In this document: positions 25,362 through 37,920 of the stretch, piece by piece | How the letters are laid out: every line of letters starts with the position of its first letter | How positions within the stretch are numbered: position 1 is the first letter of the stretch | Origin: Flammeovirgaceae bacterium | Lineage (GTDB): Bacteria; Bacteroidota; Bacteroidia; Cytophagales; Flammeovirgaceae | Reading direction: 5' to 3' | Assembly: GCA_019634305.1 (NCBI GenBank) | Contig: JAHQVQ010000070.1 | Location: 1-44,098, forward strand | DNA length: 44,098 nucleotides | Notes under the pieces: generated by a model | The model's input: the letters and a program-made list of their open reading frames with translations, nothing else | Database searches by the model: none | Told to the model about the DNA's origin: nothing | Position numbers and translations under genes: made by a program

Positions 25362-26384
25362 CTAATTTACAATTCCCTTTGTAGACTCTCGAATAATTAG
25401 TTTGGTAGGAAGAATTTTCGTTAAAATTTCCGGCTCATCTGTTTTCAGTTGATAAAAAAACATTTTTGCCGCTTCCTGTCCCATTTGAAATGCAGGTTGT
25501 TCAATAGTTGTCAGTTTGGGATTTAGCAGTTTGGCATAGGGTTCATCATTAAAACCAATCACACTGATATCCTCAGGAATCCTCAATCCCTTCTCCCGAA
25601 TGGCAGCCATAGTGCCCATCCCTATCCTGTCGTTAATACAAAAAAATGCATCTGGAGGTTCAGGCATTTCCAACATTTTTTTAGCATTTGAAAAACCCAT
25701 ATCCGATCCAAATTTACAATGACTTACCAGTTTTCGATCGAAAGAAACACCTGCTTCTGCCAATGCCTTTTGGTAGCCTTTTTTTCTGGCATTGCCAATA
25801 GGTAAACTTTCTGGCCCCTGTAAATAGGCAATTCTTTTACAGCCAGTGTCAATAAGATGAGCAACTGCTACTCTTCCTGCCTCCACATTGTCAATCATCA
25901 CTTTCGAAACATTGGGTACATTAAATCCTCTATCGAATAACACCATTGGCATTCCAGCTTCCAGGATATTGTAAAAATGGCTCATTTGCTGGGTCTCTCC
26001 GGAAATAGAAGAAATTATACCATCCACCTGACTGGCCATCAGAAATTCACAGTGCAAAATTTCCCGCTCATAAGATTCATGAGTCTGACATATGATCAGA
26101 TTAAACCCTTCTTTTAATAATATATCCTCTAAACCTTTTATTAAGGTAGCATTAAAATAATAGGAAACTTCAGGAACTATCACTCCTACAGTAAAACTTT
26201 TCTGCTTTATTAGCCTTTTGGCTACCAGGTTCGGTTTATAATTCCATTTTTTGGCCAATTCCCAAATCGCTTTTTTGGTCTCCTCCCCAATCTGATAACT
26301 ATCTTGCAATGCTCTGGAAATTGTAGAAGGAGAAACTTTTAATTCTTTGGCTAAATCTTTTATAGTTACCCTCTTTGGTTTCAT
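25362..26384 (-). CDS. LacI-family transcriptional regulator of the D-apiose locus
   Basis: The 340-residue protein has the LacI helix-turn-helix at residues 5-27 (VTIKDLAKELKVSPSTISRA) and the hinge region near 50-60. A periplasmic-binding-protein-like sensor domain follows (VGVIVPEVSYYFNATLIKGL, MVLFDRGFNVPNVSKVMIDN, DAFFCINDRIGMGTMAAIRE, ISVIGFNDEPYAKLLNPKLT). It is divergent from the apiose genes, with a 20-bp perfect palindrome in between that is a natural operator. It most likely represses the pathway until D-apiose or an intermediate is present; the inducer is inferred. Confidence 0.88.
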   Translation of the reverse strand: MKPKRVTIKDLAKELKVSPSTISRALQDSYQIGEETKKAIWELAKKWNYKPNLVAKRLIKQKSFTVGVIVPEVSYYFNATLIKGLEDILLKEGFNLIICQTHESYEREILHCEFLMASQVDGIISSISGETQQMSHFYNILEAGMPMVLFDRGFNVPNVSKVMIDNVEAGRVAVAHLIDTGCKRIAYLQGPESLPIGNARKKGYQKALAEAGVSFDRKLVSHCKFGSDMGFSNAKKMLEMPEPPDAFFCINDRIGMGTMAAIREKGLRIPEDISVIGFNDEPYAKLLNPKLTTIEQPAFQMGQEAAKMFFYQLKTDEPEILTKILPTKLIIRESTKGIVN

Positions 26385-26545: not shown

Positions 26546-26650
26546 CTTCCACCCATATTTCTTTTTTTAATCTCAAAAAAAGATGAAAATTGTCCTTTAA
26601 GGGTAGCGAACTAATTCTTTAATTCGCAGTTGCTATAATCATCATTGAAA

Positions 26651-27673
26651 ATGAAGAAATTACGATTTGCTGTAATGGGATGTGGCTTTTGGGCAAAATT
26701 CCAAATTGGAGCATGGATGGAGTTGAATGAACATGTAGAACTAATTGCCCTTTACAATAGAACCCTATCTAAAGCCGAACACCTTGCAGAATTGTATAAT
26801 GTTCCGGCCGTTTATGATGAGGCCGAAAAATTATTGGATAATGAAAAGCTGGATTTTATCGATATCATTACCGATGTAGAGACCCATCCTGTTTTCACCA
26901 AAATGGCAGCCAAAAGAGGTATTAATATAATTTGCCAAAAACCCATGGCACCTACTTTCCAACAAGCCAGGGACATGATGGAAACCTGTCGGACAAATAA
27001 AGTTGATTTTTACATTCATGAAAATTTCCGTTGGCAAAAACCTATCAGGTTATTAAAAGAAAAATTAGCTTCTGGAATCATTGGAAAGCCTTTTAAAGCC
27101 AATATCTCATTTTGCAATAGTTTTCCTGTTTTTGATAACCAGCCATTTCTTGCTGAACTGGAACAGTTTATCATCACCGATTTAGGTTCGCATATTTTGG
27201 ATGTTTCTCGATGCTTGTTTGGAGAAGCCAAATCACTTCAATGTAAAACACAGCGAGTAAACCCTAATATTAAGGGAGAGGATGTCGCCAATGTTTTTAT
27301 GGAAATGGAAGATGGCTTGCATTGTTATGCAGAAATGTCATATGCTTCCATTTTAGAAGAGGAGCGATTTCCACAAACTTTTGTATTAATCGAAGGGGAT
27401 AAAGGATCATTATATCTGGGGCCTGATTTTGAAATTAGAATCACTACAAAATCAGGAACTACAAAAGAATTGGTGGAACCGGTAATGTACGATTGGGTGG
27501 ATCCAGATTATGCTGTTGTACATTCTAGTATTTTCGATTGCAATGAGGACATTTTAATGGGAATGTTAGGAAAAAAAGTAGCTGAAACCACAGGGGAAGA
27601 TAATTTCAAAACTGTTCAATTAGTCTTTGATTCCTATCATTCTGCAGCAGAGAGTAGTATCATCAAATATTAA
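26651..27673 (+). CDS. apsD: D-apiose dehydrogenase, Gfo/Idh/MocA family
   Basis: I start the gene at ATG 26651; the longest frame uses a TTG two codons earlier. The 340-residue cytoplasmic protein has the Rossmann motif FAVMGCGFWAKFQIGAW and the cofactor/active-site motif ICQKPMAP (QKP in place of the common EKP). The stretches FYIHENFRWQKPIRLLK, FNGF-like NSFPVFDNQPFLAELEQF and TDLGSHILDVSRCLFGEA follow. As I recall the family, these are the features of ApsD, which oxidises D-apiose to D-apionolactone with NAD. The gene is first in a compact run containing all later enzymes of apionate breakdown, which strongly supports the call. No Tat or signal peptide is present. Confidence 0.78.
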   Translation: MKKLRFAVMGCGFWAKFQIGAWMELNEHVELIALYNRTLSKAEHLAELYNVPAVYDEAEKLLDNEKLDFIDIITDVETHPVFTKMAAKRGINIICQKPMAPTFQQARDMMETCRTNKVDFYIHENFRWQKPIRLLKEKLASGIIGKPFKANISFCNSFPVFDNQPFLAELEQFIITDLGSHILDVSRCLFGEAKSLQCKTQRVNPNIKGEDVANVFMEMEDGLHCYAEMSYASILEEERFPQTFVLIEGDKGSLYLGPDFEIRITTKSGTTKELVEPVMYDWVDPDYAVVHSSIFDCNEDILMGMLGKKVAETTGEDNFKTVQLVFDSYHSAAESSIIKY

Positions 27674-27683
27674 GTACTTAAAA

Positions 27684-28496
27684 ATGAGATTTGGAATAGG
27701 GACATATGCTTTTGCCTGGTCTATTGGTGTTCTGGAAAATATGCCGGAAAACCCGATGACGGTTTTCCAATTTTTGGAGGAGGCCAAAACTCTAGGTGCA
27801 GACTGTGTACAAATAGCAGACAACATTCCATTAGATCAATTTAGTCCATCTGAGTTAAATCAGATAAAAGGAAAAGCAGAGCAACTGGATTTGGAAATTG
27901 AGGTTGGCGTAAGAGGACTACTACCATATAATATCAACAAATATCTTGAATTGGCTGATTTTTTCAATTCTCCAATTTTAAGGATGGTAATATATACCCA
28001 TGAGTATCAACCAGAAATTCCGGGAATAATTGATTTAATCAATTCATATCTTCCAGCCTTTAGAGCCAAAAATGTGAAATTGGCTATTGAAAACCATGAC
28101 AGACTTAAAGCAGCCAATTTCTTAGAAATCATAAAAAATACTGATGAAAAACAAGTAGGTATCTGCCTTGATTCTGCCAATTCGATTGGGGCTGATGAAG
28201 GATTTGCAGAGGTAGTCCACCAGCTTCTCCCCTACACTATTAATCTGCATGTAAAAGACTATTCCATAAAAAGATTAAGTCATAATATGGGCTTTTCCAT
28301 TACAGGCACACCTACAGGAAAAGGCAGGTTGCCGGTGGATTGGCTAATTGAAGAATTAGAAAAATTGGGGAATTGCCAAAGTGCAATTCTGGAATTATGG
28401 CCTGCTCCTGAAAATCATATTCAGGAGACAGTTGCAAAAGAACGGGCTTGGGCTGAACAAAGTGCTAAATTTTTAAAAGCAGCATTAAAAAAATAA
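27684..28496 (+). CDS. oiaC: TIM-barrel protein, probable 3-oxo-isoapionate decarboxylase (OiaC-like)
   Basis: ATG 27684 is chosen, 10 bases after apsD; the longer frame overlaps apsD without homology support. The 270-residue protein is a xylose-isomerase-like/AP-endonuclease-2 TIM barrel: MRFGIGTYAFAWSIGV, then VQIADNIPLDQFS, LAIENHDRLKA, VGICLDSANSIGA and INLHVKDYSIKR. The Glu, Asp, His and Glu in the last motifs would bind a metal ion. In known D-apiose loci a protein of this type decarboxylates 3-oxo-isoapionate to L-erythrulose. An isomerase or epimerase role cannot be excluded, particularly because the locus also has the kinase/RuBisCO-like route for the same compound. Confidence 0.6.
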   Translation: MRFGIGTYAFAWSIGVLENMPENPMTVFQFLEEAKTLGADCVQIADNIPLDQFSPSELNQIKGKAEQLDLEIEVGVRGLLPYNINKYLELADFFNSPILRMVIYTHEYQPEIPGIIDLINSYLPAFRAKNVKLAIENHDRLKAANFLEIIKNTDEKQVGICLDSANSIGADEGFAEVVHQLLPYTINLHVKDYSIKRLSHNMGFSITGTPTGKGRLPVDWLIEELEKLGNCQSAILELWPAPENHIQETVAKERAWAEQSAKFLKAALKK

Positions 28497-28500
28497 AGAA

Positions 28501-29760
28501 ATGGAAGGAAAAAGGATAAAAGCCAACTACTTGATTGAGACCGCCTTTCCGCTTGAAAAAGCTGCAGAAACTATGGCTGGTGAACAATCTTGTGGAACTT
28601 TTGTCCGCACTCCAGGAGAGACTCAAGAACTAAAAGAAAACCACAGTGCCAGAGTGGAAAGTATCACTGAACTCAATTATGAGGGAGAACCATCTTTACC
28701 AGGAGCCAAATTTCCCAAAGAAAATGGTAAAGTAAGAAGAGGGTTGGTTGCTTTAAGCTGGCCATTGGAAAATATTGGGTTTCATCTACCCAACCTGATG
28801 GCGACTGTAGCTGGAAATTTATTTGAACTAGGGGCTTTTTCAGGCTTAAAGTTATTGGATTTTGATTTACCTGACGATTTTTCTCAAAAGTACACAGGTC
28901 CGAAATTTGGAATTGACGGTACCAGAAAATTAACTCAGGTGGAAAACCGACCTATCATTGGAACCATCATCAAACCAAGTGTGGGATTAACCCCTGAAGC
29001 CACTGCCCAACAAACCAAAACACTTATTGAAGCTGGTCTGGATTTTCTTAAAGACGATGAATTGATGGGAGATGCCCCACATTCCCCTTTCGAGAAAAGA
29101 GCAGATGCGGTAATGGAGGTCATTAATTGTCATGCCCAAAAAACTGGTAAAAAGGCCATGTTTGCCTTTAACATCAGTGGAGGTATTGATGAAATGAAAA
29201 GGAGACACGATTATGTGTTAGAAAAAGGAGGAACTTGTGTGATGGTAAGCATCAATTGGGTGGGAATAAGTGGTTTATTAAAATTGAATGAATTCACCCA
29301 ATTACCCATTCACGGACATAGAAATGGTTGGGGAATGTTCACCCGATCACCAATTTTGGGAATGGAATTTCAAGCTTATCAAAAATTATGGAGACTAGCC
29401 GGAGTGGATCATTTGCACACCAACGGTATCCGAAACAAGTTTTGCGAGACTGATGAATCAGTAATTAAATCTATTCAGGCTTGTTTATCCGAATTTATTG
29501 GCACAAAAAATCCAATGCCAGTCCTGTCCTCAGGGCAATGGGCAGGACAAACCGTTGATACTTATCATGCCATCAAAAGCACTGATGTGATGTATGTCTG
29601 TGGCGGTGGAATAGTGGCACACCCAGATGGAATTGGGGCTGGAGTAAAAAGTTTAATGCAAGGATGGGAGGCAGCTATAAATGGAATTGATTTGGAAACC
29701 TATGCCAGGGATCATAGCGAATTAAAAACTGCTTTAAAATTTTATGGGAATCTATCATGA
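28501..29760 (+). CDS. RuBisCO-like protein acting on 3-oxo-isoapionate-4-phosphate
   Basis: The 419-residue protein is a RuBisCO large-subunit homologue. The metal-binding motif is intact: Lys184, Asp186 and Glu187 in DFLKDDE, equivalent to the carbamylated Lys201 region of RuBisCO. Lys158 in GTIIKPS matches Lys175, but the partner Lys177 is Ser160. His273-Arg274 (HGHRN), Lys313 (loop 6) and the SSG/GGG phosphate-binding stretches are kept, so it is probably an active enzyme but not a CO2-fixing RuBisCO. In D-apiose loci such proteins act on 3-oxo-isoapionate-4-phosphate, either as decarboxylase (OiaX) or as transcarboxylase/hydrolase giving 3-phosphoglycerate and glycolate. The subtype cannot be told here. 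The stop overlaps the kinase start. Confidence 0.8.
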   Translation: MEGKRIKANYLIETAFPLEKAAETMAGEQSCGTFVRTPGETQELKENHSARVESITELNYEGEPSLPGAKFPKENGKVRRGLVALSWPLENIGFHLPNLMATVAGNLFELGAFSGLKLLDFDLPDDFSQKYTGPKFGIDGTRKLTQVENRPIIGTIIKPSVGLTPEATAQQTKTLIEAGLDFLKDDELMGDAPHSPFEKRADAVMEVINCHAQKTGKKAMFAFNISGGIDEMKRRHDYVLEKGGTCVMVSINWVGISGLLKLNEFTQLPIHGHRNGWGMFTRSPILGMEFQAYQKLWRLAGVDHLHTNGIRNKFCETDESVIKSIQACLSEFIGTKNPMPVLSSGQWAGQTVDTYHAIKSTDVMYVCGGGIVAHPDGIGAGVKSLMQGWEAAINGIDLETYARDHSELKTALKFYGNLS

Positions 29761-31139
29761 AGCAGCTCAACAATGACATATGGCTAAGCTATTATGGTGA
29801 TGATTTCACTGGTTCCACCGATGTGATGGAAACCCTGGCCTTGAATGGAATTCCTACCGCATTGTTCTTGCAACCTCCTACAAGTGAAGAAGTTAAAAAC
29901 TTTAAGCTTAAAAAAAATATTGGAGAAAAAACTTTAAAAGCATTTGGGGTAGCTGGAATTTCTCGAAGTCTAAATAAACAGGAAATGGAAAAGGAGTTAC
30001 TCCCTGTTTTTGAAAAAATCAGCCAGATTCCAACAGATTTCTTTCAATACAAAGTCTGCTCAACACTGGATTCCGCCCCGGATAAAGGCAATATCGGTTG
30101 GGCAACTGAATTGGCAGAACGTTTTTTCCCATCAGCAACTATTCCCATAATTATTGGAGCTCCTTTCCTTAATCGATTTGTGGTATTTGGAAATTTATTT
30201 GCCAGAATTGGTGAGGAAACCTACAGACTTGATCGCCATCCGGTTATGTCGAATCATCCAATTACTCCTATGCAGGAAAGTGATATTCGCAGACATCTGG
30301 CATTACAATCTGATAAAAAATGCCAGCTTTTTGATTTACATCATTTTGGATTAGAGGAAGAAAAAAGGAATGAAAAAATAGATGAGCTTTCTCACAACCT
30401 GGGAGATTTTTTGTTATTTGATACTTTTGATCAAAGCCATCTGGAAATAGCAGGATCCCTAATTTTTAAAATAAAGCAAAAAAAAACTCAGCTGTTAGTG
30501 GGTTCCTCAGGAATCAATTACGCTTTGGCCAAATATCTTCAAAATACAGGTACAATTAAAAAAGAAGATAAACCTCCAAAAGCAAATAAGGCGGCTCAAA
30601 TTATAGTAGTAGCAGGAAGTTGTTCTCCAATCACTGCAAACCAATTGAATTATGCATCGGAAATGGGATTTAAGGAACTACAAATTGATGTCATTGACCT
30701 TTTAAATCATCCTGAAGAAGAAATTTCTAGTATTGTTGAAATAGCATCTCAATTACTCTCAGAAAATAAAAGCCTCACAATTTTTTCGGCTAAAGGACCT
30801 AAAGATAATTCCATAGCTAAGGTAAACCAATGGATGATTGAAAATGGAAATGACAATTCAGGTAAAATTATTGGGGAAGCATTAGGCAAAATTGTAAAAA
30901 AGCTTTTAGAAGAAAATGGAAAAATAAGAGTAGTTGCAGCTGGAGGAGATACTTCAGGATATCTAGCCAGACAATTGGAGATTTATGCCCTGGAAACCCT
31001 TTACCCAATCGCACCAGGGGCACCATTGTGTGTAGCCCATTCCCATAACCCGCAATTCGATGGGTTGGAAATTTCCCTGAAAGGTGGGCAAAACGGAAAA
31101 GAAAATTATTTCCAAGCCATATTGAATGGTCAATCTTAA
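29757..31139 (+). CDS. oiaK: DUF1537-family sugar-acid kinase, probable 3-oxo-isoapionate kinase
   Basis: The 460-residue protein has the two-domain DUF1537 layout. The N-terminal substrate domain contains YYGDDFTGSTDVMETLALNG and the C-terminal nucleotide domain contains IVVAGSCSPITANQLNYA, RVVAAGGDTSGYLARQL and LEISLKGGQNGKENYF. The family phosphorylates four- and five-carbon sugar acids. In this setting the substrate is expected to be 3-oxo-isoapionate, feeding the RuBisCO-like enzyme. Its ATG overlaps the RuBisCO-like stop (ATGA), so the two proteins are translationally coupled. Confidence 0.75.
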   Translation: MKQLNNDIWLSYYGDDFTGSTDVMETLALNGIPTALFLQPPTSEEVKNFKLKKNIGEKTLKAFGVAGISRSLNKQEMEKELLPVFEKISQIPTDFFQYKVCSTLDSAPDKGNIGWATELAERFFPSATIPIIIGAPFLNRFVVFGNLFARIGEETYRLDRHPVMSNHPITPMQESDIRRHLALQSDKKCQLFDLHHFGLEEEKRNEKIDELSHNLGDFLLFDTFDQSHLEIAGSLIFKIKQKKTQLLVGSSGINYALAKYLQNTGTIKKEDKPPKANKAAQIIVVAGSCSPITANQLNYASEMGFKELQIDVIDLLNHPEEEISSIVEIASQLLSENKSLTIFSAKGPKDNSIAKVNQWMIENGNDNSGKIIGEALGKIVKKLLEENGKIRVVAAGGDTSGYLARQLEIYALETLYPIAPGAPLCVAHSHNPQFDGLEISLKGGQNGKENYFQAILNGQS

Positions 31140-31177
31140 CTCATAAAATATTAAGCATAATCTAAAACACAAAAAAA

Positions 31178-32005
31178 ATGACAAAAGTAACTATTGTTGG
31201 TGCAGGAGGAAAAATGGGTTGCAGACTTACGGACAATCTAAAAGATTCCAATTTTGACATGACTTACCTTGAAGTCAGTCCGGAAGGAATAGAAAGAGTA
31301 AAATCCAGAGGAGTGGAAGTTTCACAAGCCAAAGATGTAGTGCCAGAGGCTGATTATGTAATTTTCGCTGTTCCGGATATTGCCATCAAATCGGTCACTT
31401 CTAAAATTGTACCTATGATGAAACCTGGAGCAGTTGGAGTAAGTCTTGACCCAGCAGCACCATTAGCTGGACACCTTTTTGCCCGTGAAGATATTTCTTA
31501 TTTCGCTTCGCATCCTTCTCATCCCTCAGTGTTCAATTGGGAGCCTAATGAAAAAGCACATCTCGATTATTTTGGAGGAATTTCCGCTAAGCAAAGTATT
31601 GTTTGTGCTTTAGTTCAGGGACCAGAAGAAGTGTATCAAGCAGCAGAAGAATTGGCCAAAATCATGTTTGCTCCTGTCACTGTTTCCCACAAAATCACTA
31701 TTGAGCAAATGGGTATTTTGGAACCTGCACTTTCCGAGACTTTCGGTGCTGCAGTTGTTACTGTATTAAAAGAAGGAGTGGATAGAGTAGTAGAATTGGG
31801 AGTTCCCAAAGAAGCCGCTTATGATTTCTTTTTAGGACACATCAATATAGAATTGGCACTGCTTTTCAATCAATTACCAGGTGGCCAATTTTCCGATGCT
31901 GCTTTGAAAGCTATAAATATTGGAAAAGGTTTAATTTTCAGGGATAACTGGAAGGATGTATTTGAATCCAAAAGTGTAAAGGAACAGATTAATGCAATTA
32001 CTTGA
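31178..32005 (+). CDS. apnO: D-apionate oxidoisomerase
   Basis: The 275-residue protein has an N-terminal Rossmann fold (VTIVGAGGKMG, residues 5-14). A C-terminal helical domain related to 6-phosphogluconate dehydrogenase and ketol-acid reductoisomerase follows, with FASHPSHPSVFNWEP and MGILEPALSETFGAAVV. Within the apiose locus this architecture marks ApnO. ApnO oxidises D-apionate and migrates its hydroxymethyl group to give 3-oxo-isoapionate. The gene starts 38 bases after the kinase. It is the last gene before the inserted miniature element. Confidence 0.78.
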   Translation: MTKVTIVGAGGKMGCRLTDNLKDSNFDMTYLEVSPEGIERVKSRGVEVSQAKDVVPEADYVIFAVPDIAIKSVTSKIVPMMKPGAVGVSLDPAAPLAGHLFAREDISYFASHPSHPSVFNWEPNEKAHLDYFGGISAKQSIVCALVQGPEEVYQAAEELAKIMFAPVTVSHKITIEQMGILEPALSETFGAAVVTVLKEGVDRVVELGVPKEAAYDFFLGHINIELALLFNQLPGGQFSDAALKAINIGKGLIFRDNWKDVFESKSVKEQINAIT

Positions 32006-32384
32006 TAAGGGAAAAAATATTCTCTGGATGGTTGGGGATGATCGTAATACTGAAAATGATGAAAGTTTTATATTAGCAATATATCCCTAGGTTAAACGCA
32101 TCAAATTTTTAGATAGCTCTTAGAAGGAAGTTAGAACAGGTTTTAATAATTTTATTTTTTGAATTAAAAAATAAAATCGAGCCTCATAAGCTCCAAATAG
32201 TGTTTGAATATTTTCATGCGTTTAACCTAATATATCCCTTATGGCAGAAATTTCTCCTTAAATATTAGTAAATTGAAGTCAAAGAAATGGGTCTGCACCC
32301 AGTATAGGAGAGAGTTTGGAATTGGAAGAAATTAGTTGTGAGCTTTCAAAAAGCTTCAGTTTTTATAAAACGAGTAAATAGAAA
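32006..32384. other. 379-bp gap inside the apiose gene run
   Basis: The gap between apnO and apnL has no gene. It holds the 140-bp MITE-like element (32089-32228) with its flanking duplication, listed separately. The remaining parts are AT-rich without a recognisable promoter. Confidence 0.7.
32089..32228. mobile_element. 140-bp MITE-like element with 13-bp TIRs and 11-bp target duplication
   Basis: The ends are AGGTTAAACGCAT (32089-32101) and the exact reverse complement ATGCGTTTAACCT (32216-32228). Directly outside on both sides is the same 11-mer, AATATATCCCT (32078-32088 and 32229-32239), as left by a transposition event. No transposase is encoded. In the middle a perfect 12-bp AT-only hairpin (32149-32160 with 32166-32177, loop GAATT) is present. 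A target duplication of about 11 bp would fit mobilisation by an IS4-type transposase, which is an inference. Confidence 0.8.
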
Positions 32385-34319
32385 ATGATTTCGAAAGAAA
32401 TTTTATACTATGGGAATGAAAAGCCTTTAAAACCTGCAAAGGATTTAAGGGCCGGCCCGTTTCGTATGCTTTATGAAAATGGCTTTTTGAGGTACATAAA
32501 ATTGGGCAATTCTGAAGTACTGCGGATGATTTATTTTGCCCTTCGAGACCCAAACTGGGGTACTATCGAGGGAAGAATTGAATTTGAAAAAATTCAGGTT
32601 GGAGAAAAATCATTCTCTATTAATTACGAATGGCATTCTGAAAATTTTGCATTCCCATTTATATGGAGTTGTCAGTTGATAGGAAAAGAAAATGGGGAAA
32701 TATCATTTGAAATTAAAGGCAAAGCATTAGCCAGTTTTAAAAAAAACAGAAGTGGATTTTGTATACTACATCCTATTACCGAATGCGCTGGAGAACCTTG
32801 TGAAGTAAAATTGGTTGATGGAAAAACCACTAAGGGAAAATTCCCAAAAAATATTAGTCCGCATCAGCCTTTTATTGATATGAAGGCTATTTCCTGGAAA
32901 CCTGATAGCAAGACTGAGGTCATATTGGAGTTTCAGGGAGATACATTCGAAATGGAAGACCAGAGAAACTGGACGGATGATTCCTACAAAACCTATTGTA
33001 CACCTTTAGGTTTACCCTTTCCTGAAGAACTCCAAAAAGGAGAAGAAGTTTATCAATCTATCAAACTAAAAATAGCATCCCAGTATTCTTTGCAAATTGA
33101 AGAAGAAAATCAAGTCATTGAACTCATTCCAGGTCCTGAAGATTATGGAGAAAATCCTAAAATTGGTTTAGAAAAATCAAGTACAGGTCAGGAACTTACC
33201 AAAAAAGACAATACTTTAATTAAGGCATTAAATTTTGATCATTTCCGAGCTGAAGTCGATTTAGAAAATGACAGTTGGAAAATAGTTTTAGTAGCAGCAG
33301 TTGCGGAAGCTAAAAAGCTGAAGTTGCCATTGGAACTCGTTTTATTCTTTAGTGATCATTTTGATAATGAATTAACTAAATTTTGTGCTGCTGCAACTAA
33401 AATTAGCCCAATTATTTCCCATATTCTGTTATTGCACAATGCTCATAAATCTACCCCAGAACCATTATTAGAAAAAGCAGTTGCTCATTTAAAATCAACT
33501 TTTCCGGAAGTTAAAATTGGTGCTGGAACTAATGCTTATTTCACAGAATTGAATCGGGAAAGAGTGAATGCTGAAAACCTAGATTTTGTGGCTTATTCCC
33601 TTAATCCGCAAGTTCATGCATTTGATAATGATTCTCTCACTGAAACACTGACAGCACAGGCTTATACAGTAAAAAGTACTAAGGCCTATTTTCCTAATAA
33701 AGACGTTTTTATTTCTCCAATTACCTTAAAACCAAGGTTTAATCCAAATGCAACTTCAGAGGAAATAGCTATTTCTCCTGATGTTTTACCAGACCAGGTC
33801 GATAAAAGACAGATGTCACTTTACGGAGCTGCCTGGACTATGGGAAGCCTGATTGAACTAAAAAAATCAGGGGTGAAAAGCATTACTTATTTTGAAATTT
33901 TTGGCTGGAGAGGAATTATGTTTGGGCAATTTGAGCCTGATTTAAGCGATCAATTTTATGCAAAAAAAGGAATGTTGTTTCCTTTATATCATATTTTAAA
34001 ATTATTCCTTAAAAATAAAAAAGCCAGGTGGTTACCTTTAAAAGCTTCCCATCCTTTGAAAGCTAAAGGAATTATTTTTAAAACAGGTAGTTCCCGAGAT
34101 GAATTGCTGGTGTCTAACTATAGTGGAACGGAAATTTCTGTTCAATTAGAATTAAAAGAAGAAAATTGTTGGATTGGTTTTTTGGATGAAAATAATGTAA
34201 AAGATGCGTGGAAAGATCCTGATTTTTTTGAAAAACTTACTCTAAATAAATACGAAAACTCAAACAAATGCTTAACCTTAAAAATTAAGCCCTATGGGAT
34301 TGCCTATGGAAAAATATGA
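32385..34319 (+). CDS. apnL: D-apionolactonase
   Basis: The 644-residue cytoplasmic protein has no signal peptide or membrane segment. It matches what I know of the ApnL family: RSGFCILHPITECAGEPCEV, FPKNISPHQPFIDMKAISW and FEMEDQRNWTDDSYKTYCTP are highly characteristic stretches. The middle part (about 290-560) resembles a TIM barrel with KIGAGTNAYFTELNR and VAYSLNPQVHAFD. ApnL hydrolyses D-apionolactone, the product of ApsD, to D-apionate. The last 14 bases overlap the start of the ABC ATPase, so it belongs to the same transcript as the importer. Confidence 0.75.
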   Translation: MISKEILYYGNEKPLKPAKDLRAGPFRMLYENGFLRYIKLGNSEVLRMIYFALRDPNWGTIEGRIEFEKIQVGEKSFSINYEWHSENFAFPFIWSCQLIGKENGEISFEIKGKALASFKKNRSGFCILHPITECAGEPCEVKLVDGKTTKGKFPKNISPHQPFIDMKAISWKPDSKTEVILEFQGDTFEMEDQRNWTDDSYKTYCTPLGLPFPEELQKGEEVYQSIKLKIASQYSLQIEEENQVIELIPGPEDYGENPKIGLEKSSTGQELTKKDNTLIKALNFDHFRAEVDLENDSWKIVLVAAVAEAKKLKLPLELVLFFSDHFDNELTKFCAAATKISPIISHILLLHNAHKSTPEPLLEKAVAHLKSTFPEVKIGAGTNAYFTELNRERVNAENLDFVAYSLNPQVHAFDNDSLTETLTAQAYTVKSTKAYFPNKDVFISPITLKPRFNPNATSEEIAISPDVLPDQVDKRQMSLYGAAWTMGSLIELKKSGVKSITYFEIFGWRGIMFGQFEPDLSDQFYAKKGMLFPLYHILKLFLKNKKARWLPLKASHPLKAKGIIFKTGSSRDELLVSNYSGTEISVQLELKEENCWIGFLDENNVKDAWKDPDFFEKLTLNKYENSNKCLTLKIKPYGIAYGKI

Positions 34320-35856
34320 AAATGATATTAAACTAAAACTGACCAACATAACCAAAATTTTCCCTGGGGTTGTTGCCCTCGATGATGTAAGCCTGGAACT
34401 GAAAACTGGAGAAGTTCATGCCCTTTGTGGAGAAAATGGTGCTGGGAAAAGTACGCTAATGAATGTACTTTCAGGTAATCATCAACCAGATGAAGGGGCG
34501 GTTATTTTAAGAGGTGATAAAGTGGATGTTCCTAATCAGCTGGTTGCTCAAAAGCTGGGTATTGGTATTGTTTATCAGGAAAGAAGTCTGGTCAATGACC
34601 TTTCTGTGGCTGAAAATATTTATGCTGGAAATCAACCTACCAATCGCTGGGGAATCATAAATTTCAAAAAACTTTTTGCCCAGGCAAAAGTATTGTTAGC
34701 AAAATTGGGCATGGCAGATATTGACCCTAAAACTAAACTGGAATACCTTTCTCCTGGAAAACAGCAAATGGTAGAAATTGCCAAAGCACTTTCCCAAAAT
34801 CCGGAGATTCTTATTCTGGACGAACCCACTGCCTCCATCTCGGAAACTGATGCAAAAGTTTTGTTTCAAATTATTCATTCACTCACTCAAGAAGGTGTCG
34901 CTGTGATTTACATTTCCCATAGAATGTCGGAGATTTTTCAAATTGCTGATCGTGTTTCAATCCTGAAAGATGGAAAATATCAAGGAACAAGGATAATGAG
35001 TGAAATTTCTGTGGATGATATTATCCGACTGATGGTAGGCAGAGATTTGGTGAAACAGGACTATCAAAGCCATGTAGGTGAAGAGGTCATTCTAAAAGCT
35101 GAAAATTTCAATGGTCCAGACTTTCTTAATATCTCATTTGAATTGAAAAAAGGAGAAGTTCTAGGATTGGCTGGTTTGGTTGGAGCCGGACGAACGGAAT
35201 TGGCCAGGGCAATTTTTGGTGTAGATAAAAAATATGAAGGTGAGCTAACCCTCAATCAAAATCCAGTGAAAATTAATCATCCTATGGATGCCATGAAATT
35301 GGGAATTGGTTATTTACCCGAACACAGAAAGGAACAAGGTTTATTTTTGGAAATGACAGTTGAGGAAAACATTGTAGCTACTAATTTGGATGTAGCTGTG
35401 GAAAATAAATTGTTGCAGTTTTCAAAAATCAGTGATGTTGCCAATTCTTACATTCAGAAACTGGGGATTAAAACACCAGATTCTAAACAGAAAGTAGTGA
35501 ACCTTAGTGGGGGAAATCAACAAAAAATTGTATTGGCCAAATGGCTTTTGCTCAACCCAAAAGTACTCATTGTAGATGAGCCAACTCATGGTGTAGATGT
35601 AGGAGCAAAGGCAGAAATCTATGCCATTTTGAAAGAACTCACTGAAAAAGGGACTTCTATTATCATGATTTCTTCTGAATTGCCCGAATTGCTTAGCCTG
35701 AGTGATAGAATACTGGTATTATGTAATGGCAATCTGACCGCAGAATTACCAAAAGAGGATTTTTCGGAGGAAAAAATTATGCATTTTGCTTCAGGTACTA
35801 AAAATATGTTTAACAAAAATTCAGAGAAAATAGGGCAACCTGTTTCTGCAAATTAA
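34306..35856 (+). CDS. Sugar ABC importer ATPase (RbsA type, two nucleotide-binding domains)
   Basis: The start is placed at ATG 34306 (516 residues); a second ATG four codons upstream also lies inside apnL. The first ATPase domain has Walker A CGENGAGKSTLMNVLSG, signature LSPGKQQMVEIAKAL and Walker B ILILDEPTASI. The second domain has the usual degenerate Walker A (GLVGAGRTELARAI), signature LSGGNQQKIVLAKWL and Walker B VLIVDEPTHGVDVG. This matches the RbsA/MglA/XylG family that drives pentose and hexose uptake. With the downstream permease and binding protein it forms a complete importer, most likely for D-apiose. Confidence 0.9.
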   Translation: MEKYENDIKLKLTNITKIFPGVVALDDVSLELKTGEVHALCGENGAGKSTLMNVLSGNHQPDEGAVILRGDKVDVPNQLVAQKLGIGIVYQERSLVNDLSVAENIYAGNQPTNRWGIINFKKLFAQAKVLLAKLGMADIDPKTKLEYLSPGKQQMVEIAKALSQNPEILILDEPTASISETDAKVLFQIIHSLTQEGVAVIYISHRMSEIFQIADRVSILKDGKYQGTRIMSEISVDDIIRLMVGRDLVKQDYQSHVGEEVILKAENFNGPDFLNISFELKKGEVLGLAGLVGAGRTELARAIFGVDKKYEGELTLNQNPVKINHPMDAMKLGIGYLPEHRKEQGLFLEMTVEENIVATNLDVAVENKLLQFSKISDVANSYIQKLGIKTPDSKQKVVNLSGGNQQKIVLAKWLLLNPKVLIVDEPTHGVDVGAKAEIYAILKELTEKGTSIIMISSELPELLSLSDRILVLCNGNLTAELPKEDFSEEKIMHFASGTKNMFNKNSEKIGQPVSAN

Positions 35857-35858
35857 AA

Positions 35859-36842
35859 ATGAAACTATCTCTTAAACTTTTACAAGACCGGGTAATTACC
35901 CTTTCTATTACTATTGCTGTGCTTATTATCATTAGCAGTATTATTTGGCCCAATACTTTCCCAACTTTCGATAATTTTTCCCTCGTATTGCTCAATTTAT
36001 CTATAGAAACTATTGTAGCAGTAGGCATGATGATCCTTATGATCTCCGGTTCATTTGATCTTTCTGTAGGTTCGGTAGTGGCTTTTGCTGGCGGGTTTAC
36101 TGCCTACCTCATGTATTACTGGGGAGTTTATGTTCCTGTTGCGATTATAGCCGGAATAGGAGTTTCCATTCTCATCGGCTTTATAAATGGGTTTTTAGTA
36201 GCAAGAGTGGGAATTAATCCACTCATTCAAACACTTGCCATGATGGGCATTATCCGTGGACTTGCTTTAATGGTAAGTGGAGCAGGAATCCAGAATTTCC
36301 CCGAATCATTTAACGTAATCGGTCAGACTAAAATTTTGGGTTTTCAAACCCCAGTCTGGTTCATGCTAATCATTGTTGCTCTATTTGCTTTTCTAGTGGC
36401 TAAAACTACTTTTTTTAGGAAATACTATTACATAGGTGGGAATGAAAAAGCAGCAAAACTCTCCGGAATTAGAGTAGAGAAAATGAAAATCTATTCTTTC
36501 ATCCTGATTTCTAGTCTGGCGGGATTTGCCGGAATATTACTTTCATCACGATTAGGAGCAGCCATGTCTACTTCTGGTCAGGGAATGGAGCTGAGAGTGA
36601 TTACCGCAGTAATTTTGGGTGGAGCGAGTTTACTTGGTGGTCAGGGAAAAATTCTTGGAGCAATGCTAGGAACGATATTTATGGGGCTCATCAGCAATGT
36701 TATGATCCTGGCAAGAGTTTCAGGTTACTGGCAACAAATTATCCTGGGTCTAATCCTGATTCTCGCTGTGGTAATTGATATTATCTTAAAGAAAAATGTA
36801 GGAATTGCTCCAAAAAAATATTTAAAAAAGGCAGTGAATTAG
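35859..36842 (+). CDS. Sugar ABC importer permease (RbsC type)
   Basis: The 327-residue integral membrane protein has 8 to 10 predicted helices. Family motifs are MMILMISGSFDLSVGSVVAF near residue 55, GFINGFLVARVGINPLIQTL in the middle, and AVILGGASLLGGQGKILGAM towards the end. It belongs to the BPD_transp_2 branch of ribose/galactose permeases. It starts two bases after the ATPase stop, consistent with translational coupling. Two copies would form the channel of the importer. Confidence 0.9.
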   Translation: MKLSLKLLQDRVITLSITIAVLIIISSIIWPNTFPTFDNFSLVLLNLSIETIVAVGMMILMISGSFDLSVGSVVAFAGGFTAYLMYYWGVYVPVAIIAGIGVSILIGFINGFLVARVGINPLIQTLAMMGIIRGLALMVSGAGIQNFPESFNVIGQTKILGFQTPVWFMLIIVALFAFLVAKTTFFRKYYYIGGNEKAAKLSGIRVEKMKIYSFILISSLAGFAGILLSSRLGAAMSTSGQGMELRVITAVILGGASLLGGQGKILGAMLGTIFMGLISNVMILARVSGYWQQIILGLILILAVVIDIILKKNVGIAPKKYLKKAVN

Positions 36843-36894
36843 TGGAGGGGGAAAATAAAAAATTGATTAAAGATAAAAATTAAAAATACTGAAA

Positions 36895-37920
36895 ATGAAA
36901 ACTTATCGAAAACAACTTCTTTTAATTTTATGCACTTTGCTCACTCTGGGAATTTATAGTTGCGATCCTTCAAAAGGCGCCTATTATAAAGAAAAAAAAG
37001 CTGAAGAGGAAGCCAGTGTTCCGGTAAATCCAGATGAAGAATATATCATGATTACCACCATTGTGAATTTCCCAATGTATGTCAATCATGATCAGGCAGC
37101 ATTTATTAAATGGGGAAAAAGAAGAGGCGTTCGTACCACTGTTTTAGGACCATCCGAATGGGATGTGGCTTCACAGATTTCATTTATTGAGCAGGTAATT
37201 CCTTCTAAACCAGCGGGTTTGCTAATAAACGGAACCGATCCAGCCATTGCCAATGCTATCAACATGGCAGTGGATGCTGGAATTCCAACAGTTGTTTATG
37301 ATTCAGATATTGTGAATAGTAAAAGACATGCTTTTTTAGGTACTGACTGGTATGAAATCGGGCGATGGCAAGGGGAAGCCATGGTGGAAATGATTGGTGG
37401 AAAAGGGCAAATTGCCTACATGGGTATCATTGGTTTAGCCAATATGGAAGCCGGTTTTCAGGGTTTGCTGGATGTATTGAAAGATTACCCTGAAATAGAA
37501 GTAGTAGGCAAATACGATGACAAAGCCAATGTGGAAGAAGCGGCCAGAATTACCTCCGATTTAATAAGTGCCAATCCTGATTTAGTGGGAATTTGTGGAT
37601 TTGATGCCATGAGCGGTCCTGGAATTGGTCTGGCAGTAAAAGAGGCTGGCAAAGTGGGAAAAATAAAAATCACTACTGTAGATACCGAACCAGAACATTT
37701 GAAATTGGTTAGGGATGGTGTAATACAAACCTTGGTAGGTCAGAAAAGAGAACTGTTTACCTGGTATGGTGCACAGTTCTTATACGATATGGTACACAAA
37801 CCAAATACCCTTTCTGGTGATGACGAAAAGGCAGGAATCACGAATATTCCCTTCTCAGTAAATACAGGGCTTTTTAAAATTGACAAAACCAATATTGATT
37901 TGTTTGAATCGCCTAATTAA
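36895..37920 (+). CDS. Sugar ABC importer substrate-binding lipoprotein (RbsB type)
   Basis: The 341-residue protein has a lipoprotein signal with lipobox GIYSC (Cys23), so it is probably membrane-anchored. The mature part is a type-1 periplasmic binding protein: FPMYVNHDQAAFIKWGKRRG, GLLINGTDPAIANAINMAVD, TVVYDSDIVNSKRHAFLGTD, IAYMGIIGLANMEAGFQGL and VQTL-like VIQTLVGQKRELF. It is the last gene of the apiose run and delivers the sugar to the permease. D-apiose as ligand is inferred from the adjacent enzymes. A strong hairpin terminator follows. Confidence 0.88.
   Translation: MKTYRKQLLLILCTLLTLGIYSCDPSKGAYYKEKKAEEEASVPVNPDEEYIMITTIVNFPMYVNHDQAAFIKWGKRRGVRTTVLGPSEWDVASQISFIEQVIPSKPAGLLINGTDPAIANAINMAVDAGIPTVVYDSDIVNSKRHAFLGTDWYEIGRWQGEAMVEMIGGKGQIAYMGIIGLANMEAGFQGLLDVLKDYPEIEVVGKYDDKANVEEAARITSDLISANPDLVGICGFDAMSGPGIGLAVKEAGKVGKIKITTVDTEPEHLKLVRDGVIQTLVGQKRELFTWYGAQFLYDMVHKPNTLSGDDEKAGITNIPFSVNTGLFKIDKTNIDLFESPN

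Follow-up and report, generated by a model that had tools for sequence, protein, structure and literature searches.

The stretch of DNA described here, which we refer to as "the window", is the full length of a 44,098-base contig from a Flammeovirgaceae bacterium. Nine co-directional genes occupy positions 26645 to 37920, running from a Gfo/Idh dehydrogenase gene through the genes of a sugar ABC transporter. Before them lies a divergent gene (25362..26384, minus strand) encoding a LacI-type transcriptional regulator (Pfam LacI and Peripla_BP_3) that, given its divergent position, is likely the regulator of the operon. In loci L016 and L019, too, LacI-type genes stand ahead of the cluster. The first gene of the operon (26645..27673; this and all following genes are on the plus strand) encodes a Gfo/Idh/MocA dehydrogenase (Pfam GFO_IDH_MocA), likely a D-apiose dehydrogenase (i.e., ApsD-like). 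Its best PDB match is 5uhw, an oxidoreductase from Agrobacterium radiobacter (phmmer E 3.7e-70, with the next match at 1.5e-24; 1.6 Å by Foldseek), and the ApsD-like gene recurs beside genes for ApnL and RuBisCO-like proteins (RLPs) in many clusters. The second gene (27684..28496) encodes a xylose-isomerase-like TIM-barrel protein (AP_endonuc_2, Pfam PF01261) with weak matches to sugar-phosphate epimerases only. Homologs of this protein occur in the Bacteroidota apionate clusters L147, L017, and L041; in the window and in L017 they are encoded directly before the RLP.

The third gene, at 28501..29760, encodes the RLP that is our main subject, and its stop codon is overlapped by 4 bases (ATGA) by the start of the fourth, an OiaK-like 3-oxo-isoapionate kinase (29757..31139; Pfam SBD_N and NBD_C). 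OiaK (NCBIfam NF042436) is the best family for this kinase, yet the score of 421 bits is below the cut-off of 700. The next gene (31178..32005) encodes a 275-amino-acid protein with an NAD domain like that of ketol-acid reductoisomerase (Pfam KARI_N) followed by a PGDH_C domain (201.5 bits), with PDB matches 5t57 and 3c24; from what we know of the pathway, we take it to be ApnO-like, i.e., a D-apionate oxidoisomerase. The sole family matched by the 644-amino-acid product of the sixth gene (32385..34319) is the D-apionate lactonase ApnL (NCBIfam NF049900), at 340 bits against a cut-off of 750. A Microvirga homolog of ApnL scores 899 bits against the same cut-off, and its gene adjoins one for an RLP that is 58% identical to that of the window. 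Family matches identify the last three genes as those for the ATPase (34294..35856), permease (35859..36842), and substrate-binding protein (36895..37920) of a sugar ABC transporter. The RLP genes of a congener and of several other Bacteroidota are surrounded by the same gene set. With OiaK- and ApnO-like genes beside it, the window RLP belongs by context to the oxidative apionate pathway.

The RLP open reading frame begins with ATG and encodes 419 amino acids without an internal stop. In Pfam, RuBisCO_large scores 232 bits and RuBisCO_large_N scores 33 bits, each exceeding its cut-off. The AlphaFold model of the protein (mean pLDDT 93.3) is most similar to the Burkholderia fungorum RLP 3nwr (Z 54.0, 1.5 Å over 400 residues), followed by archaeal RuBisCO and other RLPs. 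Both large-chain domains and the RuBisCO fold thus place it in the RuBisCO superfamily. The orthologous protein of the congener is 89% identical, with dN of 0.066 and dS of 1.13; the gene is kept by strong purifying selection.

We mapped the numbering of the RLP by alignment to Form I RuBisCO, using a list of active-site residues that agrees with two published accounts (PMC9570433, PMC5786004). The alignment bears out the residues named in the initial annotation: K184, D186, and E187 of the RLP correspond to the metal-site residues K201, D203, and E204 of RuBisCO, H273 and R274 correspond to H294 and R295, and S160 (codon AGT) occupies the position of K177. Also kept are E28 (RuBisCO E60), T33 (T65), N106 (N123), K158 (K175), H306 (H327), K313 (K334), and S343 (S379); RuBisCO numbering is used for these positions below. 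Besides K177, two positions are substituted, with F34 in place of W66 and S344 in place of G380. With these three substitutions, the protein lacks the full catalytic residue set of the RuBisCO carboxylases of forms I to III. The serine at the K177 position is not a chance occurrence, since S (or N) is fixed there throughout the non-OiaX family.

The initial annotation proposed that a RuBisCO scaffold is reused to cleave a carbon-carbon bond in a branched sugar-acid phosphate, and its two candidates were a decarboxylase and a transcarboxylase/hydrolase; family matches and the operon support both the proposal and the choice of candidates. Indeed, two RLPs have been reported to act on 3-oxo-isoapionate-4-phosphate, the decarboxylase of A. 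radiobacter K84 and the transcarboxylase/hydrolase of Xanthobacter autotrophicus ATCC BAA-1158 (Py2) (PMC6302742). We represented the former, OiaX, by the NCBIfam model NF042437 (cut-off 700) and 18 proteins that score above it. For the latter, we used the RLP of genome G428, which we take to be X. autotrophicus Py2; the Py2 protein is reportedly the transcarboxylase/hydrolase described by Carter et al. in 2018. G428 encodes one RLP and has one further RuBisCO-family match. The serine itself does not discriminate between the two activities, since OiaX has A or S at the K177 position and the Py2 RLP has S; S160 is therefore evidence for neither alternative.

If the window RLP were an OiaX-type decarboxylase, the enediolate formed by decarboxylation would be protonated, giving L-erythrulose-1-phosphate with release of CO2. 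Consistent with this, no curated family matches the window RLP better than OiaX (468.8 bits), and its operon partners are the same as those of OiaX. Of the two activities, only the decarboxylase is represented among its NCBIfam matches. However, the score is far below the OiaX cut-off. Among 249 Hyphomicrobiales genomes, 18 proteins score 758–791 bits on the OiaX model and the next best scores 466; this gap gives OiaX a sharp boundary, and the window RLP lies outside it. The best-family match therefore does not establish OiaX identity. The Py2 RLP, at 430 bits, is also below the cut-off.

Catalytic residues also set OiaX apart. All 18 OiaX proteins examined carry E60D, N123G, H327Q, and S379C/G, and none of these changes is found in the window RLP. 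By contrast, E60, N123, and H327 are kept by the window RLP, the Py2 RLP, and all 36 apionate-linked non-OiaX RLPs, and S379 is kept by the same proteins with a single exception (35 of the 36). The window and Py2 RLPs are identical at 18 of 18 catalytic positions compared. We also compared 30 sites picked because they distinguish OiaX from apionate-linked RLPs (a set that held relatives of the window RLP but not the protein itself). The window RLP matches Py2 at 23 of these sites and OiaX at one, a count that reflects group identity and depends on how the sites were chosen. The pattern at E60, N123, H327, and S379 marks the non-OiaX state but does not prove the substrate, because it is also present in RLPs without ApnL or ApnO neighbors.

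Gene context points in the same direction. The product of OiaX is a tetrose phosphate, and tetrose-phosphate isomerases are therefore expected in OiaX clusters. Of the 18 OiaX genes, 9 have a triose-phosphate-isomerase-type gene nearby, and six have one of the RpiB type (D-erythrulose-4-phosphate isomerase), which scores above cut-off in both of the cases tested. Neither type of gene is found in the window, a point against decarboxylation, or at any of 79 further loci, each 12 kb or longer. Comparing 9 of 18 with 0 of 79, in related genomes and with fixed flanks, Fisher's test gives 3e-8, a value that relatedness among the loci makes too strong. A single RpiB gene is present elsewhere in the genome, on another contig, and could be a housekeeping gene. 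As for the other candidate product, glycolate, no gene for its use is present in the operon. The 85%-complete genome likewise yielded no clear glycolate oxidase, since a search with the GlcD model returned only a YdiJ-like dehydrogenase; a search for phosphoglycolate phosphatase gave only matches below cut-off.

We placed the RLPs in a tree, as the initial annotation had called for, rooted with RuBisCO as the outgroup. The OiaX proteins form a single clade (100/100) whose stem measures 0.86 substitutions per site, and the window RLP falls apart from it, in a Bacteroidota clade (98/99). The Py2 RLP belongs to a separate clade with sequences from Hyphomicrobiales and Acidobacteriota. The deep branching order is not resolved, the clade of the window RLP is not joined to that of Py2, and the data do not reject a clade uniting OiaX with the group of the window RLP (p-AU 0.18). 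The last result leaves room for decarboxylation, but the separate, long-stemmed OiaX clade speaks against it, and E60, N123, and H327 each change only once on the tree, between OiaX and all other RLPs. With the unresolved backbone and this p-AU value, assignment by the tree alone is ruled out. Taken with the scores, residues, and missing isomerases, we consider an OiaX-type decarboxylase unlikely.

A second alternative is that the window RLP acts on another branched sugar-acid phosphate, as has been proposed for the RLP of the D-hamamelose pathway in Ochrobactrum anthropi, which has been described as an oxygenase (PMC10176493, PMC8914248). Some relatives with the same residue set would suit such a role: in L009, L010, and L011, the neighbors of the RLP gene encode short-chain dehydrogenases, a LysR regulator, and a kinase of the OiaK type. 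None of the three has ApnL, and L010 and L011 also lack ApnO. These clusters possibly represent a hamamelose-type pathway. The window, however, has ApnL-, ApnO-, and ApsD-like genes in one run on the same strand, and its gene set is that of Microvirga, in which ApnL scores above the curated cut-off; we consider a different substrate very unlikely. It is scarcely credible that the protein is a methionine-salvage-type enolase or another RLP without carbon-carbon cleavage, since, although the fold is shared, MtnW models score only 151–194 bits (150.6 for TIGR03332, with a cut-off of 513.6) against 469 for the OiaX model, R295, H327, and K334 are kept in the window RLP but lost in the enolase-like sequence L158, the operon is not one of methionine salvage, and enolase-like and RuBisCO sequences fall outside its grouping in the tree, so that the grouping with methylthioribulose-type enolases named beforehand as a refutation was not seen.

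We conclude that the window RLP is probably a 3-oxo-isoapionate-4-phosphate transcarboxylase/hydrolase, predicted from its sequence and context to yield 3-phosphoglycerate and glycolate. The choice that the initial annotation left open thus falls, with fair confidence, to the transcarboxylase/hydrolase. This assignment rests on residue and context evidence, not on the tree. Counting against it are the tree result, the identity of only 51% to the Py2 RLP, the OiaK and ApnL scores below cut-off, and the lack of a clear glycolate oxidase. In the proposed pathway, the ApsD-like enzyme would oxidize apiose to a lactone, which the ApnL-like enzyme would open to apionate; the ApnO-like enzyme would convert apionate to 3-oxo-isoapionate, and the OiaK-like kinase would phosphorylate this to 3-oxo-isoapionate-4-phosphate, the substrate of the RLP.

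In 3-oxo-isoapionate-4-phosphate, C2 bears a carboxylate, a hydroxyl, and a hydroxymethyl group and adjoins a ketone at C3, an arrangement that resembles the six-carbon intermediate of RuBisCO. If the compound were hydrated and cleaved directly, the products would be phosphoglycolate and glycerate; decarboxylation at C2 followed by recarboxylation at C3 would fit the reported name of the activity and its reported products, 3-phosphoglycerate and glycolate. We therefore suggest a mechanism in which the β-keto acid, bound to Mg2+ at the K184/D186/E187 site with a presumably carbamylated lysine, would be decarboxylated at C2 to give an enediolate resembling that of ribulose bisphosphate. The CO2 would be retained and added to C3, the carbon beside the phosphate arm, and the new β-keto acid would be hydrated at C2 and split between C2 and C3, as in RuBisCO. 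Because the enediolate would arise by decarboxylation, RuBisCO-type deprotonation at C3 would be unnecessary, and Lys177 may have been lost for this reason while K175, N123, H294, R295, H327, K334, and S379 stay. The second half-reaction would need the residues with which RuBisCO handles CO2 and carries out hydration, i.e., those kept in the window RLP and lost in OiaX. The sequence, the gene order, the residue pattern, and the exclusion from the OiaX family are observed directly; we infer the chemistry and the order of its steps from the published activity names, the structure of the substrate, and the mechanism of RuBisCO; the carbamylation of K184 and the in vivo substrate of the window RLP are likewise what we infer.

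A large family of RLPs is distributed across many bacterial phyla and haloarchaea, and transcarboxylase/hydrolase activity may be its old, general function. OiaX, a simple decarboxylase, would have arisen once within this family, by losing E60, N123, H327, and S379; we offer this scenario tentatively, rating its chances a little short of even. If true, these four residues would mark the difference between CO2 capture and CO2 release on one scaffold. In the sets examined they divide the two functions cleanly, and together with context they would predict the product from sequence. If an enzyme assay agrees, exchanging them would make the carboxylation half-reaction of RuBisCO testable apart from enolization. 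Public records label proteins of the transcarboxylase/hydrolase type "ribulose-bisphosphate carboxylase large subunit family protein" or "rbcL", and such labels could mislead surveys of carbon fixation.

Related clusters differ in their settings. L004 and L007 have RLP–OiaK pairs without ApnL or ApnO nearby, in plasmid islands with plant cell-wall hydrolases (α-L-fucosidase, β-L-arabinofuranosidase, and β-galactosidase; GH28 and pectinesterase); these islands fit the use of apiose-bearing pectin. L008 and L029 have a haloarchaeal RLP–OiaK–ApnO trio, plasmid-borne in L008, and the apionate route thus appears to reach archaea.

On the best reading, then, the Flammeovirgaceae RLP is a further member of an activity type already known among RLPs. 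Of the known systems, the Py2 RLP shares all examined catalytic positions with it, including S at the K177 position, lies between ApnO- and OiaK-like genes, and scores below the OiaX cut-off. The two proteins are, however, only 51% identical and belong to separate clades, and the cluster in the window includes additional genes, for ApnL, the ApsD-like enzyme, the TIM-barrel protein, and the ABC transporter. OiaX (NF042437; A. radiobacter K84) shares the superfamily, the presumed substrate, the kinase partner, and the loss of K177, but is only about 44% identical to the window RLP, has lost E60, N123, H327, and S379, and often has tetrose-phosphate isomerase genes nearby. The B. fungorum RLP 3nwr is the closest solved structure, but it is 46% identical, has N at the K177 position, and belongs to another clade; the members of that clade in L012 and L013 have transporter and glyoxalase-like neighbors without ApnL or ApnO, and their substrate may differ. 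Form III RuBisCO shares the fold and, on comparison with Form I residues, the catalytic residues other than K177, W66, and G380. It differs in that Lys177 is replaced by Ser in the window RLP, whose neighborhood provides no ribulose bisphosphate context and whose score on TIGR03326 is 249 bits against a cut-off of 497.
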